Assembly: GCF_013342985.1 (NCBI RefSeq)
Contig: NZ_CP054490.1
Coordinates: 1 to 64,000, forward strand
Length of the DNA stretch: 64,000 nt
Direction: 5' to 3'
Origin: Candidatus Ruthia endofausta
GTDB taxonomy: Bacteria; Pseudomonadota; Gammaproteobacteria; PS1; Pseudothioglobaceae
Under the pieces are notes generated by a model, which had not been told where the DNA came from, did no database searches, and saw only the letters and a program-made list of their open reading frames with translations. The stretch's first letter is position 1. Each line of letters starts with the position of its first letter. This document shows, piece after piece, positions 24,659-38,808 of the stretch. A program made the translations under genes and the position numbers.

Positions 24659-25675
24659 ATGGATGAAGAAAAAAAACAAGCCTTAAAAGCAGCTCTTGCA
24701 CAGATTGATAAACAATTTGGCAAGGGTTCAGTTATGTTTTTGGGCGATGACCAAGTTCAAAGTAATATTGAGGTAGTTTCTACAGGCAGTTTAGGCTTAG
24801 ATATTGCCCTAGGTATTGGTGGTTTACCTAAGGGGAGAGTGATCGAAATTTATGGTCCTGAGTCATCAGGCAAAACAACGCTAACATTGCACGTGATTGC
24901 TGAGGTACAAAAACTAGGTGGTACAGCGGCTTTTATTGATGCTGAGCATGCGCTTGATCCTAGATACGCTAAACGTTTGGGTGTTAATACGGATGATTTG
25001 TTAATTTCACAACCCGATACAGGTGAGCAAGCATTAGAGATTACGGATATGTTAGTACGCTCAGGTAGCGTGGATATTGTGGTGATTGACTCTGTTGCAG
25101 CACTCGCACCCAAGGCAGAAATAGAGGGTGAAATGGGTGCTTCACATATGGGACTTCAAGCCCGACTTATGTCTCAAGCACTTAGAAAACTTACCTCAAA
25201 CATTAAGCGAACCAATACCATGGTGATTTTTATCAACCAATTACGTATGAAAATTGGTGTTATGTTTGGCAATCCTGAAACCACAACTGGTGGTAACGCG
25301 TTGAAATTTTACGCCTCAATACGCTTAGATATTCGCCGTATTGGTGCGATTAAAAAAGGCGATGAGATTTTAGGCAATGAAACACGCGTTAAAGTATTAA
25401 AAAATAAAGTTGCATCACCCTTCAAACAAGCAGAATTTCAAATCCTTTACAACGAGGGTATTTCACTTGAAAGTGAAATAATTGATTTAGGCGTGAAGCA
25501 CGGGTTTGTTGAAAAAGCAGGTGCTTGGTATAGTGTTGAAGGAGAGCGAATTGGCCAAGGTAAAGATAACGCTCGTGAATATTTAAAATCAAACCCTAAG
25601 CTCAGTCAAAAAATCGAGACACAAATCCGTGAAAAATTACTAACTAAAGAAGCAGACATTGAAAAAGGACGTTAG
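24659..25675 (+). CDS. recA: Recombinase RecA
   Basis: RecA forms filaments on single-stranded DNA, drives strand exchange and activates LexA-type cleavage. The 338-residue protein has the Walker A motif GPESSGKT at 66-73. It also has [14 protein letters not shown] (Walker B) and the DNA-binding L2 loop around [15 protein letters not shown]. The in-frame ATG at 24608 lies in the promoter region; ATG at 24659 has TAGGAGA upstream and gives the normal N terminus. No CTGT-N8-ACAG LexA box is visible in the short upstream gap. recX follows directly. Confidence 0.98.
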
Positions 25676-36286: not shown

Positions 36287-37072
36287 TTATTTAATTTGTG
36301 CCAAAACGGCGCGATTTTGTTGATTATAGTCTTTAAATTTTTGAATATTGAAAAAATCATGATTTAATAACTGTATGATTTCTTCTTGTTGGTCAAAGCC
36401 GTGTTCTAATAAAACATAGCCTTTTTTATTAAGATATTGTGGTGCGTTATCAATAATAGTGCGAACGTCATCCAAGCCATCTTTGCCAGACACAAGTGCA
36501 CTTTGTGGCTCAAAACTTAAATCATTAAGGTAGGGGTTGCCTTGTTTAATATAAGGCGGGTTGGAGATAATTAAATCAAATGTTTGGTTAGGCGTAGCTT
36601 CAAACCAACTGCCCAGTTGAAAGTTAATGTTTGTTTTTGCATTTTGCTGGGCAATGTTAAGTGCATCAATTGAAAAGTCAGTTGCAGTTAAGTGCCATTG
36701 CGGATTTTTATCGCCTAAAGTAACAGCAATAATTCCACTACCAGTGCCTAAATCAAGTACTTCACAGATTTTATTTTTATCAAACAAGCCCAAAGCAATG
36801 TCGATTAAAAGTTCAGTTTCGGGTCTGGGGATTAGCGTACTAGGGGTAACCTTAAAATCAAGATGATAAAACCCTTTTGTGCCATTTAAATAAGCAAAAG
36901 GCGTACCAGATTGTCTTTGTTTTATGAGTTGATTAAGTTGAGTTTTTTCCTCATTATTGGGCTGATAATCATAATGGGTAATAAGTTGAGTGTGGCTTTT
37001 ATTAAGGGCTAAAGATAATAGTGGCGCAATATCAATTATGTCACTGTTTAAATAATCCTGGATGGTAACCAA
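36287..37072 (-). CDS. prmC: Release factor glutamine methyltransferase PrmC
   Basis: PrmC methylates the GGQ glutamine of release factors RF1 and RF2, improving termination. The 261-residue protein has the SAM-binding motif DLGTGSGIIAVTLG and the catalytic NPPY (ISNPPYIKQ). An N-terminal helical domain ends in GTPFAYLNGTKGFY. The start is TTG at 37072, three bases after the rhodanese stop. No upstream prfA gene is adjacent. The length is slightly shorter than E. coli's 277. Confidence 0.95.
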   Translation of the reverse strand: MVTIQDYLNSDIIDIAPLLSLALNKSHTQLITHYDYQPNNEEKTQLNQLIKQRQSGTPFAYLNGTKGFYHLDFKVTPSTLIPRPETELLIDIALGLFDKNKICEVLDLGTGSGIIAVTLGDKNPQWHLTATDFSIDALNIAQQNAKTNINFQLGSWFEATPNQTFDLIISNPPYIKQGNPYLNDLSFEPQSALVSGKDGLDDVRTIIDNAPQYLNKKGYVLLEHGFDQQEEIIQLLNHDFFNIQKFKDYNQQNRAVLAQIK

Positions 37073-37075
37073 GAT

Positions 37076-37626
37076 TTATAAATTAACGGTTGTTAATCCC
37101 AATGCTTTCCAATTTTGTATACTACCTCGAAAGTATTTAATTTTAGCAGTAGGATAACTATACTTAAGCAACGTCGTTACAGAAGTTGGTATTTGACCGC
37201 ACCAGATGCCATTGCAATATAGGACTAAAGTTTTGGCATAAGAAAAATCAGGTAATTCGTCAATTTGAACGCCTAACAAGTCTCCTATAATTTCTAGTGC
37301 TTTTTCTTTATTTTTAAAACGCGTATAAGGAATGTTAATGGCAGTGGGAATAACACCCGTAATGGTTGGCCAATTAGGTGTACGTGTACCAATAATTAAG
37401 ATGGTGTCATCACCTGCTGATTTTTGTTTAATGTAGTTAATCATAACCAACTCGCCAATCGTCTCTACAGCGTGTGACGCAAAAGAGTATAACGAGTTGA
37501 GTCTTGCCACGGGCAGTTTTGAGATAAAAACTACATTGGGTAAATAAGAATTTGTTTAGTGGCTTTTTCCTGCGCATAAGTACTTAGTGTTAATAGGCTG
37601 ATTAGTAATAATGTTAATTTTTTCAT
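37076..37626 (-). pseudogene. Exported rhodanese-like protein, frameshifted
   Basis: The ATG at 37626, overlapping the rnfE stop, begins a clear signal peptide [19 protein letters not shown], but that frame stops at TAG (37531-37533) after 31 codons. The rhodanese domain continues in another frame, open from about 37560, with FISKLPVARL, HAVETIGEL, AINIPYTRF and the catalytic loop CNGIWCGQ. A single shift near 37540-37555 separates export signal and domain. The domain could still start at GTG 37510, giving 144 residues without a signal. Rhodaneses transfer sulfane sulfur, which would suit this organism, but function is doubtful. Confidence 0.7.
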
Positions 37627-38264
37627 GATTTTTCCCCTCTTAAATCGTATCTGTTTTTCATTGCCACAATAAACCCCAAACCAATGAATGCCCCTGGTGG
37701 TAAGATGGCTAGTAAAGTACCTTGATAGTTTTCAAATATAGTAACACTAAGCGTATTACCTAAATCACCCAGTAATAATGCAGATTGCTCAAACAAAGTG
37801 CCATTGCCAATCAGTTCACGCATTGCACCTAATACAATCAGTACAATAGAAAAACCAACACCCATCATCAATCCATCCAGTGCAGATTTCCCCCAAGTAT
37901 TTTTACTAGCAAATGCTTCAGCACGCCCTAAAATAGCGCAGTTGGTTACAATCAATGGTACAAAAATACCCAATATCAAATATAAATCATAAAAGTATGA
38001 CTGCATCAATAACTCAACAATCGTTACAAATGAAGCAATTAGTAGGACAAAAATAGGAATACGAACTTCTTTTGAAATTTGATGACGAAAAATAGAAACG
38101 GTTATATTAGACGCTACTAAAACAAAAGTAGTTGCCAGCCCAAGTCCGATTGCACTCACAATATTGTTAGTGACTGCCAATAAAGGACACAGACCTAAAA
38201 GTGCAACTAAGGCTTGGTTGTTATTCCACAGACCATTTTTTATAATTTTGGTATAGTCACTCAT
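37623..38264 (-). CDS. rnfE: Rnf/Rsx electron transport complex subunit E
   Basis: RnfE is a membrane subunit of the Rnf complex, which couples ferredoxin and NADH to an ion gradient, or in its Rsx form keeps SoxR reduced. The 213-residue protein has six membrane segments. It shows the family patterns [46 protein letters not shown] and [17 protein letters not shown]. No other rnf gene is in the window on the upstream side, which is a decayed gap. Its stop overlaps the start of the rhodanese gene. Confidence 0.94.
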
Positions 38265-38808
38265 GACACTCGATTATATACTTAATCACACGTTGATTTA
38301 TTGACAACAAGCCTTTGATTTTGTAAGTCTTTTTCCTATGATGCATATTAATTCTGTAGCACTTATTTCTAATGCCCCCACAATACAGCAAATACTAGAA
38401 AGCAAAGGCTTTTATTTTACCACACTCAAATAATGAAATTGAGCGCATAGAAAGCTCTGATTTTTCTGCTAGAACCCCTTGGGATAGATTGAGTGTTCTG
38501 CGTTTTTGTTTGAGCACTTTAGCAAATGATATTTTAATTGGCGCTTAATTTACCTTAAAACATAGAAAAATGATTGCTTATTTGCCACAAAGTGTTACTT
38601 TTTTCAAAAAATTATATTTTATCACGAACAATAATTCCTGATAAAATAATTCGCATTTATGACACGTTGGAGGTGTGGTAAGCTCTTGGTTTAGCAGGAG
38701 CGAGGGTCGGGGTTAGATTGAAGTATAGTGTATTTTTTAATTAGCAAAAAAGGAGGGTATGTAGGGTATGTATAACACTCCTGTGTGTGTTAACCAGATA
38801 AAAATTGA
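38265..38808. other. Decayed intergenic region with broken frames
   Basis: This 544-base stretch lies between rnfE and clpB. On the plus strand, a frame from ATG 38338 (HINSVALISNAPTIQQIL) ends at 38433. A shifted frame continues it with SDFSARTPWDRLSVLRF to a stop at 38548. Together they look like the decayed start of one protein, but I do not recognise the family. The rest, including a more GC-rich patch near 38660-38720, shows nothing identifiable. Confidence 0.4.

Follow-up and report, generated by a model that had tools for sequence, protein, structure and literature searches.

A rhodanese gene cut from its signal peptide is very likely a pseudogene in a genome close to Candidatus Ruthia

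We found that the rhodanese locus between rsxE and prmC in the window, by which we mean the whole stretch of 64,000 nucleotides that was analysed, is very likely a pseudogene of reductive genome evolution, an ordinary case of gene death. An intact ortholog is found in the same gene neighbourhood in relatives, the frame is broken by a 76-base deletion that lies beyond sequencing error, and purifying selection on the domain seems to have been lost. The earlier note on this DNA had considered that the gene might simply be dying, and this is supported by three indels, one of them shared with the sister genome, by domain codons that change as if neutral between constrained neighbours, and by damage to the gene in most relatives of the genus. 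The window, with a G+C content of 37%, comes from a single-contig genome of 1,188,809 bases with a completeness of 99.97%; among named records, Candidatus Ruthia and Thioglobus/SUP05 are closest to it. Since Candidatus Ruthia magnifica is a clam symbiont (PMC3202245), we read the window genome as that of a vesicomyid clam symbiont too.

On the minus strand, the locus follows rsxE and is followed by prmC (Table 1), and its two pieces lie in different frames, as the earlier note had stated and as the open reading frames and a PF00581 match confirm. The ATG of the first piece, at 37626, overlaps the rsxE stop codon (ATGA), and the frame ends at a TAG (37533-37531). Its beginning is likely signal-peptide-like, judging from the KK, the hydrophobic run and the probable TYA-QE cleavage site that it contains and from a similar N-terminus in relatives. 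The second piece is opened, again in agreement with the earlier note, by the GTG at 37510, with no Shine-Dalgarno-like sequence visible by eye close upstream. It matches PF00581 with 31.3 bits, above the cut-off of 22.2, and its best segment shares 81% identity with the CP072538.1 copy, so that the match is far from chance. Among NCBIfam models the domain has no match at E <= 1, and no relative was found in the viral contigs searched. The domain remnant keeps the CNGIWCG loop, and the Asp of its IDTR stretch has become Gly. Beside its end, at 37070-37078, the listed prmC frame begins with TTG three bases past the rhodanese stop, and prmC may at one time have been translationally coupled to the rhodanese.

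Table 1. Features of the rhodanese locus, its neighbours and two further rhodanese matches in the window genome.
Feature	Position	Strand	Basis	Remark
rsxE, upstream neighbour	37623..38264	-	NCBIfam match, gene order	open, constrained (omega)
Truncated N-terminus, signal-peptide-like ORF, 31 codons	37531..37626	-	ORF list and sequence; similar N-terminus in intact G010 gene	
Lesion 1, one base lost	within 37534..37545	-	alignment A2	window assembly only, absent from G008
Lesion 2, junction of 76-base deletion at TAGTTTTTAT	37524..37533	-	alignment A2	common to G008/CP072533.1
Lesion 3, one base gained	within 37485..37499	-	alignment A2	window assembly only
Remnant of the rhodanese domain, open for 144 codons from GTG	37076..37510	-	PF00581, invariant positions, omega	
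prmC, downstream neighbour	36287..37072	-	NCBIfam match, gene order	open, constrained (omega)
Rhodanese match L080	G000:C1:524046-524336			2 TAG in frame
Rhodanese match L083	G000:C1:613084-613380			1 TGA in frame

Upon aligning the DNA of the locus with the intact gene of G010, a genus relative (207 codons, between rsxE and prmC), and with other copies (alignment A2), we observe three indels relative to G010, of -1, -76 and +1 bases, which take the window copy through three reading frames in turn. The earlier note had placed one shift near 37540-37555. The alignment does not bear this out; the lesions looked like a single shift because their net change equals one frame step. About 25 linker codons, a loss that the note does not mention, are also gone from the window copy. 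The TAG within the junction of the 76-base deletion is the stop that closes the signal frame. This deletion is shared with G008 (CP072533.1, Candidatus Ruthia sp. Cpac_8_S14) and breaks the frame by itself; G008 is without the two single-base indels of the window and carries other indels of its own.

These lesions bear on two further explanations. The -1 and +1 indels are known from the window assembly alone, as would suit a truly intact gene misread in sequencing or assembly, but error is not the explanation, because the frame-breaking 76-base deletion stands in two assemblies; single-base indel errors would also leave the excess of amino-acid changes unaccounted for, and we give this reading next to no weight. 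Programmed frameshifting that joins the signal and domain frames would suit their net difference of one step, but it has to contend with three frames in turn, with other shifts at this place in the sister genome and with a domain on which no selection is detected. No slippery heptamer was seen by eye in the overlap, and we consider frameshifting of this kind to be extremely improbable.

We next turn to the ends of the deletion. In G010 the counterpart of the 76-base stretch opens with TAGTTTTTAT, and the identical ten bases are found past its far end in G005 and G006. None of the genomes shown has both repeat copies exact, with G010 reading TAATTTTTAC at the far end and G005 reading TGGTTTTTGT at the near end; a perfect direct repeat would have flanked the stretch in the ancestor. 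In G006, as read from the sequences, a 21-base in-frame deletion lies at a different repeat pair with almost the same sequence. Slippage between short repeats is the likely origin of the 76-base deletion, in agreement with PMC3202245 and PMC5310779, which propose replication slippage or short repeats as the source of RecA-independent deletions. As a separate observation, the window genome has an intact recA (24668-25633; 562 bits, no stops), and among the 12 genus genomes it has no match in 4 and is present only as a remnant in one.

The earlier note had proposed a comparison with relatives, and this located an intact syntenic gene in G010 and in 12 named relatives outside the genus (L003-L013, L015). 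In these 12, one open frame of 213-229 codons, counted from stop to stop, encodes a signal-like N-terminus followed by a linker and the domain. The order clpB-rsxE-rhodanese-prmC is found in 11 of them, and in L006, the remaining one, the last three of these genes are seen on a short locus that starts inside the region. This order is a feature of the family only, because at 11 more distant loci (L016, L017, L019-L027) the rhodanese stands without rsxE or prmC beside it. The family search covered 83 genomes, of which 46 had a match at E <= 0.001, many of the matches being paralogs located elsewhere in the genome.

Within the genus, only one of the 11 other genomes, G010, carries the complete gene in one frame. 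In G007 (L033, CP072538.1) a deletion has removed most of the linker and left the signal in frame with the domain, giving a shortened rhodanese of about 160 codons in which Leu has replaced the Trp of the cysteine loop. In G005 the signal and linker carry three in-frame stops and the domain is open, G006 has a linker deletion and a one-base loss within the domain, and G008 has, besides the shared deletion, further indels and a stop, in the domain too. Many lesions are seen in the gene of G003 (1,160,782 bases), short remnants are left in G011, G002 and G004, a mere 48-base match that enters no alignment is found in G009, and G001 has no rhodanese match at E <= 0.001. The neighbours rsxE and prmC are free of gaps and stops at the columns of the window in all 10 other genus genomes aligned, a count that leaves out G001 and insertions relative to the window; G003 has one extra codon in rsxE. 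Further upstream, the gap between clpB and rsxE (38270-38805) spans about 540 bases without a long open reading frame, compared to about 50 bases separating the two matches in L003. Parts of it match 7 of the 11 other genus genomes, and it is perhaps another decayed gene.

Next, we investigated selection on the domain with a codon model (own script) fitted to 129 domain codons of six genus copies (window, G008, G007, G005, G010 and G006), in which stop and gapped codons are treated as missing and G003 and the remnants are left out. The six-copy tree was taken from the flanking genes, and its three internal splits have support of 1.000, 0.993 and 0.963. For the window, G008 and their stem, a grouping fixed before any fit, the domain omega is 1.26 (against 1: LRT 0.29, p = 0.59), with a background of 0.23, and on the same branches the control genes give 0.23 for rsxE (p = 2e-5 against 1) and 0.21 for prmC (p = 3e-8). 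The model detects no purifying selection on the domain in this window-plus-sister lineage. On the window branch alone, the domain omega is 5.3 (p = 0.20 against 1; p = 0.009 against one ratio), and the controls rsxE and prmC have 0.25 (p = 0.02 against 1) and 0.37 (p = 0.10), respectively; power is low on one short branch, since prmC, a control, does not differ from 1 there either. The stem alone has a domain omega of 0.40 in a free-ratio fit; part of the stem may predate the loss, and some weak constraint may remain.

Upon grouping the signal-cut lineages (window, G008, their stem and G005), we find a domain omega of 1.41 (p = 0.35 against 1); this grouping with G005 was picked after the free-ratio fit, which makes its comparison with the one-ratio model optimistic. 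G005 alone has an omega of 1.73 (p = 0.46 against 1), and G007 and G006 with their stem have 0.10 (p = 9e-12 against 1). The low omega in G006 must predate its break, because the domain of G006 has itself been frameshifted. The constraint on the domain seems to be gone where the signal is cut. Furthermore, among 78 domain positions that are invariant in the 12 intact orthologs, the window has changed 13 and G008 14, compared to 6 in G007, 7 in G005, 7 in G010 and 6 in G006, with two of these positions changed in every one of the six genus copies. The changes in the window include the Asp of the IDTR stretch, which we take to matter in rhodanese, and the second Gly of RGG. In neutral simulations with the observed 39 differences in 387 bases, the domain frame stayed stop-free in 31% of cases, so that an open frame here is no proof of function.

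This evidence also bears on a reading in which export was lost and the gene was kept, the domain being translated from the GTG at 37510, or from a later ATG, as a cytoplasmic sulfurtransferase. The domain frame of the window is still open over 144 codons with its PF00581 match, and the cysteine loop is kept, which are counterpoints to gene death as well. Additionally, all three window indels are confined to the 5' part and spare the domain, an arrangement expected in about 5% of cases if indels were placed by length (hand arithmetic, post hoc), and the three in-frame stops of G005 are likewise limited to the 5' part; the confinement of the indels could hint at retention of the domain. Against this stand the omega of the signal-cut lineages set beside that of G007, G006 and their stem, the altered Asp and Gly, the lack of a Shine-Dalgarno-like sequence visible by eye and a sister copy that is broken inside the domain. 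The move from periplasm to cytoplasm that the earlier note had raised is therefore not upheld, as the codon model does not find the domain under purifying selection after the loss of the signal, and we regard it as very unlikely. A similarly small chance attaches to a related scenario, in which the export half decays first in several clam-symbiont lineages and the orphan domain is briefly a weak cytoplasmic sulfurtransferase before it is lost.

Under gene death, the reading that we prefer, the ancestor would have had one gene of about 207 residues in the order clpB-rsxE-rhodanese-prmC, with signal peptide, linker and domain, an organisation seen in G010 and in the relatives outside the genus, and its product was probably exported. 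The common ancestor of the window and G008 would then have lost 76 linker bases, most simply through slippage at the direct repeat, and with them the frame. Selection on the remainder would have ceased, which the codon test supports, and the window lineage would later have gained the -1 and +1 indels together with many amino-acid changes at conserved places. Translation from the old ATG would now give a stub of 31 residues, and a useful amount of the domain is probably not produced. The window genome has eight rhodanese-domain matches, this locus included, and, if their functions overlap, the loss of one without harm is therefore plausible. Two of the others, L080 and L083 (Table 1), carry in-frame stops and may be decaying too.

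This kind of decay is well described for vesicomyid clam symbionts in PMC3202245, PMC5310779 and PMC7826175, which report decaying recA and mutY (PMC3202245), decaying uvrD and other genes (PMC5310779), and 47 pseudogenes in another clam symbiont (PMC7826175). The main texts of PMC3202245 and PMC7826175 do not contain the word rhodanese, and our literature search found no paper on short-repeat deletions in Calyptogena symbionts and listed one genome paper for the loss of a signal peptide from a rhodanese. The rhodanese case leaves existing knowledge unchanged; it offers a clear example of gene loss in an intracellular symbiont, with an apparent ancestral deletion at a short repeat followed by drift in the descendants, and with stages from intact gene to remnant visible inside one genus. 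Compared to the Thioglobus/SUP05 rhodaneses of the 12 intact relatives, the window copy is homologous, has a similar signal-like N-terminus and lies beside rsxE and prmC, but it lacks about 25 linker codons and runs through three frames, whereas theirs is one open frame with a linker. Similarly to the decay of recA, mutY and uvrD in clam symbionts, as given in PMC3202245 and PMC5310779, small indels and stops accumulate step-wise and larger deletions follow in separate lineages; the present case differs in that it concerns a rhodanese, that the short repeat at the deletion junction is directly readable, and that the window genome has kept recA intact.
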